This document shows, one piece after another, positions 30,033-58,088 of a stretch of DNA of 64,000 bases. The stretch is from Aureimonas sp. ME7 (lineage in GTDB: Bacteria > Pseudomonadota > Alphaproteobacteria > Rhizobiales > Rhizobiaceae), in assembly GCF_903970965.1 (NCBI RefSeq), contig NZ_CAJCKW010000008.1, positions 62,001-126,000 of the forward strand. Reading direction: 5' to 3'. The notes under the pieces were generated by a model. That model saw nothing but the letters and a program-made list of their open reading frames with translations, did not search any database and had not been told where the DNA came from. Position 1 is the stretch's first letter. Each line of letters begins with the position of its first letter. Both the position numbers and the translations under genes were made by a program.

Positions 30033-30412
30033 TCGTCACAAGGGTCCTCGGTGGGGCAACTCCTTGTCTAGCGCGGATCGGGGTGGGCATGACACCCGGG
30101 CAGGCCACGAGAATACAAGTTCCCTCATGGTGGGATGTCGAGCGCAGCGTTCCATTCATCCCGTCGGCGCAGCCGCGATCCGCCCGAACGCGTCTGGCGC
30201 TTCATCGCCGAGGATGAGCCCATGCCTGTGGTCGCCTCGCGAGCTTTGGCTCGCAACGATCCGGGACGCATCGCCGGACGCGGCGTGTCTGCCGCGCGAA
30301 TGCCGGATGATGCCGGCTTGCCGGAATCTCCACCCGAGACGGGTCGGGGCAGGTTGCCCGCGCGCCCAGGAAGGCAGCGCGCGGGTGTCGGCCGATGGCC
30401 AACCGCCGAGGG
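30033..30412. other. Gene-free spacer between iolR and the superoxide dismutase gene
   Basis: A 380-base gap holding the iolR promoter region (including the AGAA-N6-TTCC half-matching operator at 30110-30123), a hairpin GCGAGC/GCTCGC at 30239-30254, and a perfect 9-bp stem at 30357-30365 with 30377-30385. The last lies 28 bases past the dismutase stop on the minus strand and may be its terminator, though without a T run. Open frames in both strands lack family resemblance. Confidence 0.5.
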
Positions 30413-31159
30413 CTACTTCGCCAGTGCGATGGCGTAGTTTTCCGACACCTTCGTCCAGTTCACCGTGTCCCACCAGCCCTTGAGGTAGTCGGCGCGGCGG
30501 TTGTTGTGCTTGAGATAGTAGGCGTGTTCCCACACGTCGTTGCCGATCACCGGTGTGCCGCGCGTGTCCGCCACGTCCATCAGCGGATTGTCCTGGTTCG
30601 GCGTCGAGGTGATGGCGAGCTGTTTGTTCTCGTCGACGATCAGCCAGGCCCAGCCGGAGCCGAAGCGATCCGTGCCGGCCTTGTTGAAAGCCTCCTTGAA
30701 GGCGTCCATCGAGCCGAACACGCTGGTGATCGCGGCCGAAAGCTCGGGCGAGGGTTCGCCGCGCCCGGCCTCCGGCGCCATGATCTGCCAGAAGAACGTG
30801 TGGTTCCAGTGGCCGCCGGCATTGTTGCGGACGGTCGCGGAGCGCTGGCCGGCGGTGGCGACGAGTTCCTCCAGGGACAGGCCGGCGAGCTGCGCATCGC
30901 CCTCCACCGCCGTGTTCAGCGCGGTGACATAGGCTTGATGGTGCTTGGAATGGTGGAGTTCCATCGTCTGCGCGTCGATCACCGGATCCAGCGCATCATA
31001 GGCGTAGCCAAGCTCGGGCAGGGTGAAGGGGGCGCTCGTTCGTGCTTCCGTGCTGGCGGCGGGCGCGGCCGTCTGGGCGAAGGCGGGCGCCATGAACGTG
31101 CCGGCAGAGGCACTGATGGCGAGCGCGAGAAGGGCGGTCTTGAGGCGGGATCGTTGCAT
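30413..31159 (-). CDS. Exported iron/manganese superoxide dismutase
   Basis: A 248-residue Fe/Mn-type superoxide dismutase that converts superoxide to oxygen and hydrogen peroxide. Unlike the usual cytoplasmic enzyme of about 200 residues, it begins with an apparent signal peptide ([20 protein letters not shown] then APAFAQ as a cleavage site near 29), so it probably acts in the periplasm. The fold is complete: [35 protein letters not shown] and [11 protein letters not shown] carry the four metal ligands (three His, one Asp). Fe or Mn use cannot be told. I chose ATG 31159, since the extension upstream lies inside the GMC gene region and has no homology. It sits alone between the iol and GMC units. 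Confidence 0.92.
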
Positions 31160-31257
31160 CGGGGGAAAAGCTCCGGCGTTCGAGACGAGATCGTGTCGCT
31201 CGGCCAACGGTCGCCTTTCCCCACGCGTTGCAAAAACAAGTCGTGATCGGTCCGCCC

Positions 31258-32805: not shown

Positions 32806-34178
32806 CGCGCGGCCTCCATCGCGGGTTCCCACGCTTCGCGCTCGCCCGCACCCAAGAGGTCGAAGCCCTGCTTGCGCGCGCCGTCGCCGCCATTGGCGAA
32901 GCCGTCGAAGCCGATCCGCGCCATGGTGGCGGGGTGCGCCAACCATTGTCGCACGAGGTCGGTGCGCGCGTCCTCGAACCAGCCCGTCATCTGCTCTGCC
33001 TTCAAGGTGCCCCAGGGCGGGGCGAAGCTGCCGTCCGCCACCGCTCGGAGCCGGGCGTCCTGCTCGGTTTCGCTGGAGGTCTCCAAGCCCGCCAGGGCGT
33101 CGAGCCCGGCGCGGTAGGCTTCGAGGTCGGGGGGCAGGGTGGCGAGACGCCAACCGTCGCCGGCGCCCTTCGCCAACTGCGCCGCCACTCGTTCGGCCAG
33201 ATCGATCTGGGGCTCGTCCTGCGGCACGACCCGGGCTGCGAGCGCGCGCAGCGTCTTCATCTGCGCGCCGGAAAGGACGGAGGCGCCTTCGCCGGAAGGG
33301 CAAGCCAGATAGCGATAGGCGAGGATCGAGCGCGTCCGGGCGCTGACGCGCTCCGAGGCGATCACGGCGGCAAAGTCGGCCGGAACCGCGGGTCCGACCC
33401 CGGCACGTTCGTTCCAGAAGCGCCGGATGGCGTCCGCGACCTCGTCCGGGCGCTCCAGCGGCAGGAGATGACCGGCGCCGTCCAGCACCTCGAGTTCGGC
33501 GCCGGGATAGACGGTTCCGTTGGTTCGGCGCTGCCCGTCCGGTCCGAGGTCGCCGTCCGCGCCGCCGGCGAGGATCAGCGCGGGAAGCGGCAGGGTGCCG
33601 ACCGTTGCCGACCAGTCCTCGCGGCTGCCCCGCTCCAGCCAGGCGGCCCAGGCGCGCGGGTCGGCGCGCCGGAGATCGGCCCGCATCAAGGCGTCGTCCC
33701 GTTCGGAAAGGGGAGAGCCCACGTTGGCGTCGATGAAGCGGCGCGCGGCGGCCTCGTCGAGGTGCTGCCCACCCTGCACCCAGGACAGCATGTCCTCGCG
33801 CCGCTCCTCGTCCATCGGCTCGGGGCTCGGCGGCGAGCCGGCGAGAAGAACGACGCCGGCAAGACCGAACAGGCCGGGTTCGCCTGCCAAGGCTCGCGCG
33901 GCCAGGATCGTCGCGATCTTGCCGCCCATGCTGTGGCCGAGAAGCATCCAGCGCGGTGCGGCGCGGCCGGCGACGATGCCAGCCACGTGGCGGACCATCT
34001 CTTCGACCGAGGTGCCGAGGCTTGCCGGCGCGTCGCCGAAACCCGGCAGGTCGATCGCGATCGTTTCGAACATGTCGCCGAGGCGCGCGTCGAGAGTCGA
34101 AAACTCGGCCCGGCTGGCGCCGAGCGCATGGAGGCAGAACAGCACCGGCCGGTCCGATGCGGGCAGATCAAATGACAT
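32802..34178 (-). CDS. Alpha/beta hydrolase fused to gluconate 2-dehydrogenase subunit 3-like domain
   Basis: A 458-residue fusion. Residues about 1-265 are an alpha/beta hydrolase: LFCLHALGASRAEF as oxyanion region, nucleophile elbow LLGHSMGGKIA (serine near 98) and catalytic-His region DGAGHLLPLERP. Residues about 285-445 resemble gluconate 2-dehydrogenase subunit 3 (LRALAARVVPQDEPQ, GWFEDARTDLVRQWLAHPATMARIGFDG), the small chaperone-like partner of GMC dehydrogenases. The large subunit gene follows with a four-base overlap. The usual Tat signal of the small subunit is missing, replaced by the hydrolase. A joint dehydrogenase/lactonase or esterase function is an attractive inference, not shown. 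A LacI-type operator lies 45 bases upstream of the start. Confidence 0.8.
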   Translation of the reverse strand: MSFDLPASDRPVLFCLHALGASRAEFSTLDARLGDMFETIAIDLPGFGDAPASLGTSVEEMVRHVAGIVAGRAAPRWMLLGHSMGGKIATILAARALAGEPGLFGLAGVVLLAGSPPSPEPMDEERREDMLSWVQGGQHLDEAAARRFIDANVGSPLSERDDALMRADLRRADPRAWAAWLERGSREDWSATVGTLPLPALILAGGADGDLGPDGQRRTNGTVYPGAELEVLDGAGHLLPLERPDEVADAIRRFWNERAGVGPAVPADFAAVIASERVSARTRSILAYRYLACPSGEGASVLSGAQMKTLRALAARVVPQDEPQIDLAERVAAQLAKGAGDGWRLATLPPDLEAYRAGLDALAGLETSSETEQDARLRAVADGSFAPPWGTLKAEQMTGWFEDARTDLVRQWLAHPATMARIGFDGFANGGDGARKQGFDLLGAGEREAWEPAMEAAR

Positions 34179-34222
34179 TCACATCCACGCGAGGCAGTTT
34201 GTAGCGTGTCTAAGTTTAGGCG

Positions 34223-34236
34223 GGAAAGCGCTTCCA
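34223..34236. promoter_or_regulatory. LacI-family-type operator candidate
   Basis: GGAAAGCGCTTCCA matches the general LacI-family operator form TGNAANCGNTTNCA at every fixed position except the first. It is 45 bases upstream of the hydrolase-fusion start and within the divergent spacer shared with the DapA-like gene. No LacI-type regulator gene is in the window. Confidence 0.5.
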
Positions 34237-34357
34237 CACAGGTCTTGCAACAAACTGTCGCGATTCGGCTGGCGCCGGCAGGCAGCGAGGCCGCTTGCGC
34301 ATCCCCCTTCATCACCTGAACCGGTCGACCGACCGCACCGTCTCCATCTCTGATCAT

Positions 34358-51459: not shown

Positions 51460-52953
51460 ATGACCATCGCCATGCCGCGCCCAAGCGCGGCCATTCTCGC
51501 GCGCCGTGCCGCGATCGTCGCCGCGCTCCGGCGCATCGTGCCGGGCGAAGGCGTGGTCGACGCTTCGGTCGAGATGCGCGTCTTCGAGACCGACGCCTTG
51601 ACCGCCTATCGCCAGTTGCCGCTCGTCGTGGTGCTGCCCGAAACGGTGGCTCAGGTCGCCGAGATCCTGGCGTACTGCCACCGGAACGAGGTGCCCGTCG
51701 TGCCGCGCGGAGCCGGCACGTCCCTGTCGGGCGGCTCGCTTCCGCTGGAGGACGGTGTGCTCCTCGTCCTATCGCGCTTCAACCGCATCCTGGAAGTCGA
51801 TTTCGACAATCGCTGCGCCGTGGTTCAGCCGGGCGTCACCAATCTCGGCATCACCAAGGCGGTCGAGCATGCCGGCTTCTACTACGCGCCCGACCCGTCC
51901 TCGCAGATCGCCTGCTCGATCGGGGGCAACGTCGCGGAGAATTCGGGCGGCGTCCACTGCCTGAAATACGGGTTGACGGCCAACAACGTCTTAGGCGTCG
52001 AGTTCGTGACGATCGAGGGCGAGGTGATCCGCCTCGGCGGCAAGCACCTGGACGCCGAGGGCTACGACCTTCTCGGCCTTCTCACCGGCTCGGAAGGGCT
52101 GCTCGGCGTCGTCACCGAGGTGACGGTGCGCATTCTCCAGAAGCCGGAAACGGCGCGCGCCGTCCTCCTCGGCTTCCCGACCTCGGAACAAGCGGGCGCC
52201 TGCGTCGCCGAGATCATCGCGCGCGGCATCATTCCCGGCGGCATGGAGATGATGGACGCGCCCGCCATCCGCGCGGCGGAGGACTTCGTCCATGCCGGCT
52301 ACCCGCTGGACGTTGAGGCGCTTCTGATCGTCGAACTCGACGGGCCGGGCGCGGAGGTCGATCATCTCCTCGGCGAAGTCGAGGCGATCGCGGGCACGAA
52401 CGGCGCCACCACCGCGCGCGTGTCGCAGTCCGACGCCGAGCGCATGAGCTTCTGGGCGGGGCGCAAGGCCGCTTTTCCGGCGGTCGGCCGCATTTCGCCC
52501 GACTATCTCTGCATGGACGGCACGATCCCACGAAAGGAACTGCCGCGGGTCCTGGCCGGAATGCGCGCTCTGTCGGAAAAGCATCGCTTGGGCGTCGCCA
52601 ACGTGTTCCACGCCGGCGACGGCAATCTCCATCCGCTGATCCTCTACGATGCGGCCAAAGACGACGAGTTGCAGCGCGCCGAGGACTTCGGCGCCGATAT
52701 CCTGCGCCTTTGCGTCGCGGTCGGCGGCGTCCTGACGGGCGAGCACGGCGTCGGCATCGAGAAGCGCGACCTGATGCCCGAAATGTTCGGCGAGGACGAC
52801 TTGCGTCACCAGCAGCGCGTCAAATGCGCCTTCGACGATAAGCATCTCCTGAACCCCGGCAAGATGTTTCCGGTGCTGCATCGCTGCGCCGAACTCGGCC
52901 GGCTCCATGTCCACAAGGGGCAACTGCCCTTTCCCGACCTGCCGCGCTTCTAG
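51460..52953 (+). CDS. glcD: Glycolate oxidase subunit GlcD
   Basis: A 497-residue FAD-linked oxidase. The FAD-binding PCMH domain (about 55-230) includes VVPRGAGTSLSGGSLPL and DPSSQIACSIGGNVAENSGG; the C-terminal cap shows NVFHAGDGNLHPLILYD and GVLTGEHGVGIEKRDLMPEMF. GlcD with GlcE and GlcF oxidises glycolate (or lactate) to glyoxylate and passes electrons to the respiratory chain. The ATG at 51460 follows GGGAGG. The stop is one base before the glcE start. The operon promoter lies in the 133-base spacer from the macrodomain gene. Confidence 0.95.
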   Translation: MTIAMPRPSAAILARRAAIVAALRRIVPGEGVVDASVEMRVFETDALTAYRQLPLVVVLPETVAQVAEILAYCHRNEVPVVPRGAGTSLSGGSLPLEDGVLLVLSRFNRILEVDFDNRCAVVQPGVTNLGITKAVEHAGFYYAPDPSSQIACSIGGNVAENSGGVHCLKYGLTANNVLGVEFVTIEGEVIRLGGKHLDAEGYDLLGLLTGSEGLLGVVTEVTVRILQKPETARAVLLGFPTSEQAGACVAEIIARGIIPGGMEMMDAPAIRAAEDFVHAGYPLDVEALLIVELDGPGAEVDHLLGEVEAIAGTNGATTARVSQSDAERMSFWAGRKAAFPAVGRISPDYLCMDGTIPRKELPRVLAGMRALSEKHRLGVANVFHAGDGNLHPLILYDAAKDDELQRAEDFGADILRLCVAVGGVLTGEHGVGIEKRDLMPEMFGEDDLRHQQRVKCAFDDKHLLNPGKMFPVLHRCAELGRLHVHKGQLPFPDLPRF

Positions 52954-52954
52954 G

Positions 52955-54187
52955 ATGTCCGCGATCCAACATTCCCCCGTCGCCGACGAAACGCTTCGTC
53001 CTGGCACACCGGCCGAACTGCGCGAGATCGTGGCGGGCGCGCTTAGCACCGCCACGCCCTTGAGCGTGGAAGGGGCGGCCTCGAAGCGCGGCCTCGGCCG
53101 CCCCGTCCAGACCGGGCGCACCGTCTCCACGGCCGCGATGACGGGCATCCTGTTCTACGAACCCGAGGAACTCGTCCTGTCGGCGCGCGCAGGCACCCCG
53201 ATCGCCGAGATCGAGGCGCTTGTCGAGGCCCATGGGCAGCGCCTCGACTTCGAGCCGATGGACTACGGCCCCCTGCACGGGCGCGAACGGGGCCTCGGGA
53301 CGATCGGCGGGGTGATCGCCTGCAACCTGTCCGGGCCTCGCCGCCTGAAGCAGGGCGCGGCGCGCGACCATATCCTCGGGTTGTCGGCCGTTTCAGGCCG
53401 GGCCGAGATCTTCAAGGCGGGCGGGCGCGTCGTGAAGAACGTCACCGGCTACGACCTGTCCAAGGGGCTGACGGGCTCCTACGGGACGCTCGCGATCTCG
53501 ACCGAGCTGACGATCAAGGTGATGCCGAAATCCGCGGCCGAGACGACGCTGGTCCTGCGCGGCCTGGAGGACGAGGCGGCGGCCGGCGCGATGGCGGCGG
53601 CCATGGGCTCCTCGGCGGAAGCGTCGGGCGCCGCGCATCTGCCCTACGGCGTCGCCGGGCGGATCGCGGCGGGCGCGCTCGGCCGCGAGGCGGCGACGCT
53701 GGTCCGGCTCGACGGGTTCGGCCCCTCGGTGGCCGCGCGCGCCGCGCATCTCGGCGCAGCGCTCGCGCGCGTCGCGCCGCTGGAGCGTTTCGAGGGCGAG
53801 GCGTCCGCCACGCTCTGGCGCGACGTGCGCGACGCAGCTCCCTTCGTGGACGGCACCGAGCGGCCCGTCTGGCGCGTCTCGATGACGCCGACGCGCGCGC
53901 CCGGTTTCGTCCTCGCCCTGCGCATGCAACTCGGGACGGATGCGTTCTACGACTGGCAAGGCGGGCTCGTCTGGCTGCGCCTCGAAGCGGGGGCGGAAGC
54001 CGAGACCCTACGCGCCGAGCTCGCCCGCCACGGCGGGGGCCACGCGACCCTGGTGCGCGCCGCGCATTCCGAGCGCGCCGCCGTCCCGGTCTTCCAACCT
54101 CAGGCCTCGGCCCTGGCCGCCCTGTCGAAGCGCCTCAAGGATCAGTTCGACCCGCAAGGCATCCTCAATCCCGGCCGGATGGTCTGA
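52955..54187 (+). CDS. glcE: Glycolate oxidase subunit GlcE
   Basis: A 410-residue FAD-binding subunit, shorter than GlcD. The FAD domain includes PLSVEGAASKRGLGRP, GTIGGVIACNLSGPRRL and the family's GRVVKNVTGYDLSKGLTGSYG. The C-terminus LKDQFDPQGILNPGRMV is typical. It starts one base after the glcD stop (ATG 52955). Unusually, the next gene is not glcF: a NucS/DUF91-like nuclease gene starts 14 bases after this stop. Confidence 0.94.
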   Translation: MSAIQHSPVADETLRPGTPAELREIVAGALSTATPLSVEGAASKRGLGRPVQTGRTVSTAAMTGILFYEPEELVLSARAGTPIAEIEALVEAHGQRLDFEPMDYGPLHGRERGLGTIGGVIACNLSGPRRLKQGAARDHILGLSAVSGRAEIFKAGGRVVKNVTGYDLSKGLTGSYGTLAISTELTIKVMPKSAAETTLVLRGLEDEAAAGAMAAAMGSSAEASGAAHLPYGVAGRIAAGALGREAATLVRLDGFGPSVAARAAHLGAALARVAPLERFEGEASATLWRDVRDAAPFVDGTERPVWRVSMTPTRAPGFVLALRMQLGTDAFYDWQGGLVWLRLEAGAEAETLRAELARHGGGHATLVRAAHSERAAVPVFQPQASALAALSKRLKDQFDPQGILNPGRMV

Positions 54188-54201
54188 AAGCGAAGCGTTC
54201 G

Positions 54202-54936
54202 ATGCGTCACGATTACGTGCAATGGCTGGAAGACAAACAGTACGCATTGCCCACGAGAGGCAATCAGCTCCACCGTGTGCGGAAGGTGGAAGAGGCGTAT
54301 GGCGATATCGAGCGGCACTTGAGCGAAGGTACGTTCGAAACCGTCCTGTCAACGCTGCAGTATTCTACGGCCGACGAACGGAGAGCCCGACCAAATCCGT
54401 CCAAGATGAAGTTCGAAGGGAACATCCGAAACAACCTGCAGTCCTACAAGAATGCGATCGTTCTCTACCGCTCATTCCTGCTTGAGACGCGGGACGGTAA
54501 GTTGCCTGTGGGGGATGGCGAGAGCCTTCAAGACTCCCACTCAACGACAACGGACGAGTTGGACAAGAGGCGCCTGTCGTTGGAGCGGGACATGCAGGTG
54601 GCTCTACGTCGCAACATCGCGGCGCTGGAACCTTCCCTGCGGATCGTCGACGACGGCGTCGAACGCTCCGTTGCTTCCGGTTTCATCGATATCACCTGTG
54701 AGGACGGTTCGAACCGTCTTGTCGTCGTTGAACTCAAGGCGGGTAAGGCCGATGGCCGCGCCATCGGTCAGATACTTGGCTACATGGGTGATCTGGCGGA
54801 GGAGGAGGGGAGTGAGATCCGGGGCATTCTGGTCGCCCATGATTTCGACAAGCGAACCATCGCAGCTGCCCGCGTGGTGCCGACCCTTGCCCTGGTCCGC
54901 TACAGCATAGAGTTTCGGTTCGAGATGGAGTCCTGA
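54202..54936 (+). CDS. NucS/DUF91-like PD-(D/E)XK nuclease inserted between glcE and glcF
   Basis: A 244-residue protein. The C-terminal half (about 125-240) resembles the nuclease domain of NucS/DUF91: LERDMQVALRRNIAALEPSLRI, SGFIDITCED (Asp163), RLVVVELKAGKADGRA (Glu177, Lys179) and IGQILGYMGDL (Gln190) form a PD-(D/E)XK active site. The N-terminal 120 residues are charged and helical, with no family I know. Codon use is unlike its neighbours: AGA, CGA, CTA, ATA, TTG and TCA are frequent, whereas glcE and glcF nearly lack them. It fits tightly, 14 bases after glcE and six before glcF, so it must be transcribed with glycolate oxidase. This suggests horizontal acquisition; its role may be DNA repair, mismatch cutting or defence. 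Confidence 0.8.
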   Translation: MRHDYVQWLEDKQYALPTRGNQLHRVRKVEEAYGDIERHLSEGTFETVLSTLQYSTADERRARPNPSKMKFEGNIRNNLQSYKNAIVLYRSFLLETRDGKLPVGDGESLQDSHSTTTDELDKRRLSLERDMQVALRRNIAALEPSLRIVDDGVERSVASGFIDITCEDGSNRLVVVELKAGKADGRAIGQILGYMGDLAEEEGSEIRGILVAHDFDKRTIAAARVVPTLALVRYSIEFRFEMES

Positions 54937-54942
54937 CATCTC

Positions 54943-56271
54943 ATGCAAACCGCCTTTTCCCCGGAAGCCCTTCGCGATCCCGATACCGCCCATACGGAAG
55001 GGATCGTGCGCAAGTGCGTGCATTGCGGCTTCTGCACGGCGACCTGTCCGACCTATGTGACGCTCGGCAACGAGCTCGATAGCCCGCGCGGGCGGATCTA
55101 TCTCGTCAAGGAAATGCTGGAAGCGAACCGGCCGGCGGACGAGCGCACGGTGAAGCACATCGACCGCTGCCTGTCCTGCCTCGCCTGCATGACGACCTGC
55201 CCATCGGGCGTGAACTACATGCATCTCGTGGACCATGCGCGCGCCCATATCGAGCGCACCTACACGCGCCCGCTGCCGGACCGCCTGATCCGGTTCCTGC
55301 TCGCCAAGGTTCTGCCCTATCCCTCGCGGTTCCGCCCGGCGCTTCGCCTGGCGCAGCTGGCGCGACCGCTCGCCCGGGTGCTGGACGGGATCAAGCCGTT
55401 GAAGCCGCTCGCGGCGATGTTGAGGCTCGCCCCCGTGCGCCTGCCTTCCCGAAGGCCCGCAGCGGCGCCACCCATGGCGAAGGGCGCTCCCAGGCGCGTC
55501 GCGCTTCTGGCCGGCTGCGCCCAGTCGGTGCTCGATCCCGGCATCAACGCGGCGACCGTGCGCCTTCTCGCCCGGCTCGGCGTCGAAACCGTGTCGCCGA
55601 AGGGGGAGGGGTGCTGCGGCGCGCTCGTCCACCATATGGGGCGCGAGGACGAGGCGCTCGCCTTCGCGCGCCGCACGGTCGACGCTTGGACGCGCGAGAT
55701 CGAGACGGGCGGGCTCGACGCGATCGTGGTAACGGCGTCCGGCTGCGGCACGACGATCAAGGACTACGGCCACATGCTGCGCCTCGACCCGGATTATGCC
55801 GAGAAGGCGGCGCGCGTGTCGGCGCTGGCGAAGGACGTCACCGAATATCTCGCGACCCTCGATCTGCCGCTCCCCGAACGGCCGGGGGAGGCTGTGGTCG
55901 CCTATCATTCGGCCTGCTCGATGCAGCATGGGCAGCGGATCACGGCGGCGCCGAAGGTGCTCCTGGCGCAGGCCGGGTTCACCGTGCGCGACGTGCCCGA
56001 AGGGCACCTATGCTGCGGCTCGGCGGGCACCTACAACATCCTCCAGCCGGAGATTTCCGCCCGGCTGCGCGATCGCAAGGTCGCCAACATCGAAAGCGTG
56101 AAGCCCGACATCATCGCCACCGGCAATATCGGCTGCATGACGCAGATCGCCTCGGCCACGGGCATTCCGATCGTCCACACGGTGGAGCTTCTCGACTGGG
56201 CCTTTGGCGGCGAGCGGCCGGCGGCGCTTGCCGACTTCAACCCGGCGCCGAGGCTGGAAGCGGCGGAGTGA
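54943..56271 (+). CDS. glcF: Glycolate oxidase iron-sulfur subunit GlcF
   Basis: A 442-residue iron-sulfur protein with two 4Fe-4S sites, CVHCGFCTATCPTY and CLSCLACMTTCPSG, in the first 90 residues. Two CCG domains follow (GCCGALVHHMGRED; LCCGSAGTYN). It passes electrons from GlcD/GlcE to the membrane. The start ATG at 54943 is six bases after the inserted nuclease gene; the N-terminus MQTAFSPEALRDPDTAHTEG is as in homologues, so the insertion did not disturb it. The stop codon's last base is the first base of the terminator stem. Confidence 0.95.
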   Translation: MQTAFSPEALRDPDTAHTEGIVRKCVHCGFCTATCPTYVTLGNELDSPRGRIYLVKEMLEANRPADERTVKHIDRCLSCLACMTTCPSGVNYMHLVDHARAHIERTYTRPLPDRLIRFLLAKVLPYPSRFRPALRLAQLARPLARVLDGIKPLKPLAAMLRLAPVRLPSRRPAAAPPMAKGAPRRVALLAGCAQSVLDPGINAATVRLLARLGVETVSPKGEGCCGALVHHMGREDEALAFARRTVDAWTREIETGGLDAIVVTASGCGTTIKDYGHMLRLDPDYAEKAARVSALAKDVTEYLATLDLPLPERPGEAVVAYHSACSMQHGQRITAAPKVLLAQAGFTVRDVPEGHLCCGSAGTYNILQPEISARLRDRKVANIESVKPDIIATGNIGCMTQIASATGIPIVHTVELLDWAFGGERPAALADFNPAPRLEAAE

Positions 56272-56328: not shown

Positions 56329-57087
56329 TCAGCCGCCGAACAGGCCGGACAGGAGGCCCGGCTTGCCCGTCTTGTTCGACACGGTGCGGATCAGGCCGGT
56401 TTCCTGGACGTAGCGGTTCTCTTGCCCCGGTCCGACCACCACGACCTTGGTGCCCTTGCCCGCGCGCTCGTAGAGATGGGTCACGTCCTCGTTCATCATG
56501 CGGATGCAGCCGGACGACATGTTCTGGCCGATGGTCCAGGGCTGGTTGGTGCCGTGGATGCGGAACATCGAATCGCCACCGCCTCGATAGAGATACATGG
56601 CGCGCGCGCCGAGCGGGTTGTCCGGGCCGCCCGCCATGTAGGCCGGCAGGATGCGCCCCTTGGCCTTCTCGCGCGCGCGCATGGCGGCCGGCGGCGTCCA
56701 TCCCGGCCATTCGGCCTTGCGCCCGACGCTCATCGTGCCGCCCCAGGAAAAGCCGTCCTTGCCGACGCCCACGCCGTAGCGCGTCGCGGTGCCGCCGGCT
56801 TCCACGAAGTAGAGGAACTTCCGATCCGTATCGATCACGATCGTGCCGGGCTTTTCCTTGGTCGCGATGCGCACGCTCTGGCGCATGAAGCGCGCGTCCG
56901 GCTGGCGCATGGCTTGCGTCTTGCGGGCGACCTGGTCCTGGCGGATCTGGGCGCGCTGACCCGTCAGCCATTGGCCGCTGGCATGCTCGTAGTAGCGCAC
57001 CTGCGGCTCGGCGCTGGCGATCGAGGGCGCGCTCAGCGGCGCGAGGCCGGCAAGGAGGGCCAGAACGAGGGGCGTCGTCATCTTCAT
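56329..57087 (-). CDS. L,D-transpeptidase (YkuD family), downstream paralogue
   Basis: A 252-residue exported enzyme with a signal peptide (MKMTTPLVLALLAGLAPLSA, cleavage near SIASA-EPQ). The YkuD domain (about 80-230) has the HGTNQPWTIG strand and the catalytic SSGCIRM with Cys194. L,D-transpeptidases make 3-3 crosslinks in peptidoglycan or link it to outer-membrane proteins; those of Rhizobiales are numerous and support polar growth. The C-terminal tail SNKTGKPGLLSGLFGG is short and hydrophobic. The upstream start chosen is ATG 57087; the frame is open further but only over the neighbouring paralogue's antisense-like sequence. Confidence 0.93.
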   Translation of the reverse strand: MKMTTPLVLALLAGLAPLSAPSIASAEPQVRYYEHASGQWLTGQRAQIRQDQVARKTQAMRQPDARFMRQSVRIATKEKPGTIVIDTDRKFLYFVEAGGTATRYGVGVGKDGFSWGGTMSVGRKAEWPGWTPPAAMRAREKAKGRILPAYMAGGPDNPLGARAMYLYRGGGDSMFRIHGTNQPWTIGQNMSSGCIRMMNEDVTHLYERAGKGTKVVVVGPGQENRYVQETGLIRTVSNKTGKPGLLSGLFGG

Positions 57088-57209
57088 GGGCGGGTGTCCT
57101 TGTCGGTTGAGGCGGGAGAAAAGACGTTCGGAACGATCCGAATCGTATGAAGGGCAAGCGGCGGAAAAGCCGAGGGCGGTTGCAGGCGTTCTGCAACCAC
57201 CTGTTGCAG

Positions 57210-58088
57210 TCACAGCACGATGACGCGCGTGCCGACGCCGACCCGCTCGTAAAGGTCGATCACGTCCTCGTTGCGCATGCGGATGCAGCCGGACGACACG
57301 GAATGCCCGATGGTGGAGGGCTGGTTGGTGCCGTGGATGCGATAGAGCGTCGAGCCGAGATAAAGCGCCCGGGCACCCAGCGGGTTCTCGACGCCGCCCG
57401 GCATATGCGCGGGGAGGTAGCGGCCTTTGGCCGCTTCGCGCCGGATCATTTCGGCCGGCGGCGTCCATCCCGGCCATTCCGCCTTGCGCGACACGGTCTC
57501 CGAGCCCGACCAGCCGAACCCTTCCTTGCCGACGCCGACCCCGTAGCGCTTGGCCCGGCCGCCGGCCTCGACGTGGTAGAGGAAGTGCTGGCTGGGATCG
57601 ATCACGATCGTGCCGGGCGCATGGCCGCCGCGGTAGTCCACCATCTGCGGCAGGAAGCGCGGGTCGAGACCGCGCTGAGGGGAGGTGTCCCGCGCGGCGG
57701 GGGCGACGGGGGCCGTGGCCAGCGACGCGAAGACGGGGGCGCCGGTGCGCCTGGCGCGGCGCACGTCCTCGCGGCGCGGCGTGCCGAACATGCCCAACAG
57801 CGGCCGGCGCTTTTCGTGATAGGAGCCGAGCGGCTGCATCGGGCCGCCCCCTTGCGGGATGACGCCGACCGGAATGTTGCCTTCGAAGACCACGGTGCCG
57901 GGCGCGTAAGGGTCGACCGTCCGCTGGCGCGCATAGCCGGGAACGATCCCGCTGCCCGGCGACAACTGACGCACCCAGGGCTCGGCGACGGCGGGCGGCA
58001 CGGAGAGCGGGCGACGGTCGCGCGCTTCCGCCACGGGGCTAAAGGCGCCGATCAGGACGACGGCGCAAAGTGTCGGCAACATCCGCAT
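57210..58088 (-). CDS. L,D-transpeptidase (YkuD family), upstream paralogue
   Basis: A 292-residue exported paralogue of the next gene, with a signal peptide (MRMLPTLCAVVLIGAFSPVAEA) and a YkuD domain at about 155-292 holding RIHGTNQPSTIGHSVSSGCIRM (Cys268). It shares long identical stretches with the downstream enzyme: RYGVGVGK, RKAEWPGWTPP, GARA and HGTNQP. It differs by a proline/arginine-rich linker of about 120 residues after the signal. The pair is 122 bases apart and probably arose by tandem duplication. Confidence 0.93.
   Translation of the reverse strand: MRMLPTLCAVVLIGAFSPVAEARDRRPLSVPPAVAEPWVRQLSPGSGIVPGYARQRTVDPYAPGTVVFEGNIPVGVIPQGGGPMQPLGSYHEKRRPLLGMFGTPRREDVRRARRTGAPVFASLATAPVAPAARDTSPQRGLDPRFLPQMVDYRGGHAPGTIVIDPSQHFLYHVEAGGRAKRYGVGVGKEGFGWSGSETVSRKAEWPGWTPPAEMIRREAAKGRYLPAHMPGGVENPLGARALYLGSTLYRIHGTNQPSTIGHSVSSGCIRMRNEDVIDLYERVGVGTRVIVL

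Follow-up and report, generated by a model that had tools for sequence, protein, structure and literature searches.

A predicted two-module nuclease gene in a variable slot between glcE and glcF of Aureimonas sp. ME7

Introduction

A 64,000-nucleotide stretch of the genome of Aureimonas sp. ME7 (contig NZ_CAJCKW010000008.1, positions 62,001 to 126,000; hereafter the window) carries a putative nuclease gene between the glycolate oxidase genes glcE and glcF. The closest described systems each resemble the predicted protein in part. NucS/EndoMS, the archaeal and actinobacterial mismatch endonuclease (PF01939), has a similar catalytic C-terminal PD-(D/E)XK domain. According to PMC5290159, NucS/EndoMS occurs where MutS and MutL are absent, and certain bacteria have the NucS C-terminal region combined with other domains. 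The N-terminal half of the window protein, however, is unrelated to that of NucS in both model and sequence, its host has MutS, and its distribution is patchy and mobile. In McrBC type IV restriction the likeness lies in the other half: the N-terminal module of the window protein is akin to the N-terminus of McrB-like proteins that have a McrC neighbour on plasmids. Unlike McrBC, the window nuclease, encoded between glcE and glcF, has neither an AAA/GTPase domain nor a McrC partner and is one chain with a nuclease of its own. The words integrase, SAM-like, NucS and DUF91 are absent from the main text of an McrBC census (PMC11090510).

PDC-S02, which PADLOC holds as a phage-defence candidate only, is alike in its C-terminal nuclease part and apparently also in plan, with a recognition module followed by a NucS_C-like nuclease, but its N-terminal module differs and only part of its profile is matched. 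A full-length relative appears in RefSeq as an 'endonuclease NucS domain-containing protein' of Nitrosospira (WP_213539882.1), an annotation that gives no function; it is plasmid-borne, whereas the gene described here sits in a metabolic operon. As to the site itself, relatives have DUF433-DUF5615 gene pairs, which we take to be VapBC-like, in the glcE-glcF slot, and the proteins of these pairs are unrelated to the nuclease. Chromosomal hotspots of gene turnover (PMC5635113) are comparable in that inserts are quickly gained and lost at a single location flanked by core genes; here, by contrast, the inserts are one or two short genes, and they lie inside an operon, where they separate the genes of neighbouring subunits of a single enzyme.

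Results

Architecture of the predicted nuclease

The gene at 54202-54936 (+ strand) is an open reading frame of 244 amino acids without an internal stop, predicted to encode an N-terminal helical, core-binding-like domain followed by a NucS_C-type PD-(D/E)XK nuclease domain. The Pfam NucS_C model matched residues 128-216 (54583-54849, +) with an E-value of 3.7e-12 and a bit score of 46.7 (cut-off 24). A preliminary description, made from the letters of the window, had named Asp163, Glu177 and Lys179 as the active site of a PD-(D/E)XK enzyme and had held that their loss on alignment would speak against it. No such loss was seen: the predicted metal ligand D163 (codon at 54688-54690, +) and the predicted catalytic stretch E177, L178, K179 (codons 177-179, 54730-54738, +) are invariant, with D163, E177 and K179 unchanged in all 12 aligned family members. 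The likeness to NucS that it had drawn stands for the catalytic half and fails for the N-terminal half, as the full-length NucS model scored 65.4 bits against a cut-off of 216 and aligned to the window protein from residue 115 only. Pfam found no AAA domain in the 244 residues. A search of BFVD returned a single hit at E <= 0.001, an RNA polymerase subunit 5, which we read as alike in the fold of the catalytic region only and set aside.

Residues 1-97 (54202-54492, +) form a domain of six helices in the model, followed by a low-confidence linker (residues 99-116; 54496-54549, +; pLDDT < 50); mean pairwise identity across residues 98-122 is 13.6%. This N-terminus had been described as matching no family, and Pfam gave no match to residues 1-97. 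Searches with tblastn nevertheless related it to the N-termini of McrB-like proteins, with E-values of 9e-10, 7e-7 and 3e-6 for the window protein and of 7e-13 to 8e-9 (four proteins) for the N-terminal domain of a family member from another genome (L003). On all four plasmids examined that carry such proteins (L127, L128, L130 and L132), a gene for McrC (PF10117) lies directly downstream; the McrB-like protein has an AAA domain confirmed by Pfam in L127 and L128, is annotated as AAA in L132 and is annotated as hypothetical in L130. The same module also opens a 240-amino-acid protein encoded amid Abi, RecB-like and DUF4011 genes, and a 354-amino-acid protein with an HNH-like tail, the tail being judged by eye. 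The PDC-S02 profile PDLC04824 matched both the C-terminal part of the window nuclease (E 8.7e-14, profile positions 220-306 of 308) and the N-terminal part of the McrB-like protein of L127 (E 1.5e-7, positions 17-122), which suggests that McrB-type modules and NucS_C-type nucleases have been joined in another form as well.

For the fold of the N-terminal domain, Foldseek returned no match at E <= 0.001 (the best, at 1.4, was a TrwB entry), and no PDB sequence matched the N-terminal profile at E <= 5. Integrase core-binding domains surfaced only in a second look with VIA-align over 88 Foldseek chains, and on this model-based comparison the fold appears closest to recombinase core-binding domains.

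Occupancy of the glcE-glcF junction

The junction insert might have been peculiar to the ME7 genome, as the preliminary description implied, but it is not; the junction varies across the genus and the family and holds several unrelated genes. Among 21 congeneric genomes, a search for glcF at E <= 1e-100 was positive in 20, and only two of the 21 have the nuclease, so the gene is not a fixture of the site in all relatives, which was to have counted against it if combined with matching codon use. The junction is empty (8-20 bp) in 11 of the 20 genomes with glcF. Where it is filled, the occupant is the nuclease (in the window), DUF433 plus nuclease (G015), DUF433 alone (G012), DUF433 plus a DUF5615 PIN gene (four genomes) or a second putative nuclease (two genomes).

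In the family, 346 genomes were searched, with GlcF found in 303 and GlcE in 307. Junctions were taken from the best 150 of the 303 GlcF matches and the best 150 of the 307 GlcE matches, which biases the sample to close relatives; 101 genomes were among the matches listed for both proteins, with the two genes on different contigs in two. In the 99 others the glcE-glcF gap was 55 bp or less in 27, 56-200 bp in six, 201-560 bp in 31 and 561-2000 bp in 35. We classified 101 junctions, namely 20 from the genus, that of Rhizobium straminoryzae (L006) and 80 that were fetched, comprising all remaining gaps of the 99 above 55 bp plus ten short ones; Pfam checks of single examples confirmed the family names of the inserts. 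The commonest arrangement was a DUF4870 gene alone (33 of 101), followed by DUF433 with PIN (24) and junctions of 55 bp or less (21). DUF4870 with DUF433 and PIN was found in five and no family could be given in seven. The nuclease stood alone in two junctions, behind DUF433 in two and behind DUF4870 and DUF433 in one; the second putative nuclease stood alone in two and with DUF433 in one. Single junctions held DUF433 with a receiver-domain protein, DUF4870 with a receiver-domain protein, and DUF433 alone. All 114 seed matches in glcE-glcF junctions point in the direction of the operon. In the genus g181, the five genomes have DUF433 with PIN, DUF433 with the receiver-domain protein, DUF433 with the second putative nuclease and, twice, a gap of 63 bp.

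Several of these occupants merit a description of their own. The DUF4870 membrane-protein gene (L058 and 39 others, 40 of 101 junctions classified) may be a long-standing regular member of the glc operon rather than cargo. The second small family in the slot (L014:2803-3486, L016 and L046:305-1024) encodes proteins of 227-239 amino acids with an E-V-K motif like that of PD-(D/E)XK enzymes; Pfam gave it a sub-threshold match only (HSDR_N_2, E 0.028; none for the L046 relative), and the L014 protein had no PADLOC match. The receiver-type insert (L041:303-950 and L095) encodes 215 amino acids, which include a membrane-like stretch at the N-terminus and a receiver domain of the response-regulator type. 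In L048 (G456) a glcE-glcF gap of 1179 bp contains two minus-strand lipoprotein-like open reading frames (138 and 109 amino acids) unlike the other inserts.

The nuoD-nuoE junction of the same family was chosen as a quiet control. Here the two domains lie more than 400 bp apart in 16 of 97 genomes (median gap 173 bp), and the glc seeds had no match in the 16 long stretches (L133-L148). The control has nuclease genes too: Uma2 putative restriction endonuclease genes were found by Pfam in all three inserts scanned for them (L133, L139 and L143) and by eye in four more (L137 and L140-L142), with FkbM (L136, by Pfam) and DUF4267 (L147) among the other inserts. Inserts at operon junctions, nucleases included, are therefore not special to glc; they are commoner at the glc junction than at nuoD-nuoE.

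Operon setting and composition

In the window, glcE (52907-54187, +) and glcF (54943-56271, +) reach their equivalog cut-offs (287 against 284 bits and 484.7 against 333 bits), while the upstream glcD (51460-52953, +) was matched by GlcD models below theirs (708 against 897 and 526.2 against 567.9 bits). As had been noted, 14 bases separate the glcE stop from the nuclease start (54188-54201, +) and six bases the nuclease stop from the glcF start (54937-54942, +), both glc reading frames are open, and the gene lacks mobile-element ends. No repeat pair flanks it. We saw no relics of DUF433 at this junction, and the + strand between 51300 and 56500 showed neither a promoter-like nor a terminator-like site. 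Because of the close spacing and the missing + strand promoter-like match, the nuclease gene is probably transcribed together with the glycolate genes, which would place it under glycolate control.

The codon use of the gene had been called unlike that of its neighbours, and comparison with 50 crudely called window genes agrees. Its GC content of 58.1% compares with a mean of 68.5% (sd 2.5, minimum 64.0%; z -4.1) and its codon score has a z of -2.6, with two of the 50 genes lower; GC3 is less extreme (z -2.1, again two of 50 lower). One of the two lower codon scorers, at 56422-57150, overlaps two minus-strand YkuD-type open reading frames and is probably spurious. GC content falls below that of the flanks in 11 of 13 copies of the nuclease family, the two exceptions being copies in apparent mobile elements. 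Elsewhere in the window, two more open reading frames with odd codon use (30395-31246 and 33520-34353) had no Pfam match at E <= 0.01, and two adjacent minus-strand L,D-transpeptidase-type frames lie downstream of glcF at 56329-58088 (57210-58088 being YkuD by Pfam).

Relatives, selection and history

A pattern scan of GTDB contigs found seven relatives of the nuclease. One, in Rhizobium straminoryzae, is also at glcE-glcF. Two alphaproteobacterial metagenome-assembled genomes (L005 and L007) carry it at different junctions of the nuo operon (nuoD confirmed in L005), and two Roseobacteraceae between rsmE and gshA (L008 by Pfam, L009 by eye), where one more frame precedes gshA, by eye. The remaining two, L003 and L004, lie by integrase-like, recombinase-like or relaxase-like frames identified by eye; L003 adjoins a confirmed C5 methylase. 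The full-length Nitrosospira plasmid relative has 60.7% identity. Identity is 49-61% for the relatives on a plasmid and on a viral contig and for those next to integrase-like and C5-methylase genes. The copy on the viral contig (L120:6001-6788) lies among phage tail-type genes, judged by eye, has a GC fraction of 0.41 against 0.61 around it and is followed by a strong terminator-like hairpin; it looks like a phage moron. No match was found in 50,697 phage records. In the order 11 of 397 genomes had any match, full-length only in the window genome, and in the class two of 385 matched at E <= 1e-25.

For the closest pairs pN is 0.129-0.179 and pS 0.85-0.88 (saturated), and for the window copy and L003 pN is 0.273 and pS 0.855, with synonymous sites likewise saturated. 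As pN lies far below pS, the protein has been kept by purifying selection. The window protein is 60-61% identical to mobile copies and 54-57% to glc copies; against its congener the nuclease has 56% identity and GlcF 87%. When all rows were used, the data rejected a single clade of the five glc copies (p-AU 0.008 with an outgroup, 0.015 without); once the long-branched L009 was removed, such a clade was no longer rejected (p-AU 0.153). The four glc copies other than L006 can form one clade (p-AU 0.237), as can the window copy with L015 (0.062), and no inner branch of the tree of copies was starred. The history of the slot may be one of repeated arrival, of one arrival with fast change, or of exchange by recombination.

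Discussion

We are much surer of the two-module architecture and of the variable slot than of function. Judged from sequence, it is slightly more likely than not that the gene is mobile, rides in the operon as cargo and encodes a type IV-like restriction nuclease made of one protein. Its product would be a single-chain DNA endonuclease in which the N-terminal helical module common to McrB-like proteins would recognise some feature of incoming DNA, a flexible linker would join this module to the PD-(D/E)XK cutter, and the NucS_C domain would cleave incoming phage or plasmid DNA. The gene travels on plasmids, phages and other mobile elements and also lies between genes of core operons, in this case in the tolerant glcE-glcF slot.

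An unlikely alternative is a free-standing selfish endonuclease of the homing type, in which a recombinase-like clamp picks sites near operon junctions and alleles that lack the gene, once cut by the NucS_C domain, acquire it during repair, with no need for mobile ends. The seamless intergenic insertion between open genes, free of flanking repeats, is a trait of such elements that the window nuclease has. The occurrence of family members in five or more kinds of site (glc five times, nuo twice, rsmE-gshA twice, a phage tail cluster, mobile elements and a plasmid), the modelled resemblance to recombinase core-binding domains, and a divergence between congeneric nuclease copies far beyond that of GlcF are in keeping with it. 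But the slot also holds the unrelated PIN/DUF433, second-nuclease and receiver-domain inserts, so that the site does not depend on the nuclease; no common motif was found when the flanks of the 13 copies were compared by eye; and the lineage tests leave one arrival or many undecided. Somewhat less probable is a joint version, in which the slot serves Rhizobiaceae-type bacteria as a site for cargo, exchanging small conflict genes (PIN/DUF433 pairs, nucleases) with no mobile element involved, and the nuclease would be a self-placing enzyme of a new kind, a recombinase-type clamp with a NucS cutter that inserts its own gene at operon junctions; immunity genes would thereby be retained in, and expressed from, a respiration operon.

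The preliminary description had suggested either a domesticated repair enzyme or a small defence gene, and of these the defence guess fares better. A NucS/EndoMS-type mismatch or lesion repair nuclease, domesticated in its host, would account for the closeness of the catalytic domain to EndoMS/NucS and for the strong conservation of the active site. We think it improbable, since the NucS N-terminal half is replaced by a different domain, the same genome has MutS (MutS_V match, E 3.4e-84; MutL was not looked for), and presence in two of 21 congeneric genomes is unlike that of a housekeeping repair gene.

The nuclease could instead be a toxin that replaces the PIN toxin of a DUF433-DUF5615 pair, with DUF433 as antitoxin. 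DUF433 lies directly upstream in three of the five glc copies, at a junction where 29 of 101 examples have DUF433 then PIN, and in three genomes of g181 the gene after DUF433 is in turn PIN, receiver-type or the second putative nuclease. This is nonetheless very doubtful: the adjacent DUF433 gene is missing from the window junction and from L006, and DUF433 had no match in six non-glc loci (L003-L005 and L007-L009), so the nuclease family stands alone in most copies. Equally poor is the proposal of a neutral or near-neutral passenger, placed by homologous recombination between the glc genes of relatives whatever its biochemical role: the inserts at nuoD-nuoE do show that tolerant junctions are not special to glc, yet the low pN relative to pS and the invariant catalytic residues speak for selection on the protein at some time.

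We found no literature report of an insert at glcE-glcF or of DUF433 with DUF5615, subscription papers being mostly out of reach, nor one of this domain pair, and the setting is unusual and useful. Surveys for defence genes are guided by defence islands and mobile elements, and would miss single nuclease and toxin-antitoxin-like genes that lie in core operons, follow the operon's orientation and have no ends of their own. A McrB-type recognition module on a NucS cutter makes a small candidate one-protein restriction enzyme. If the nuclease does restrict phage or plasmid DNA, immunity would here be coupled to glycolate metabolism, with the glcE-glcF junction as a simple, comparable place at which to follow the gain, loss and exchange of such genes.
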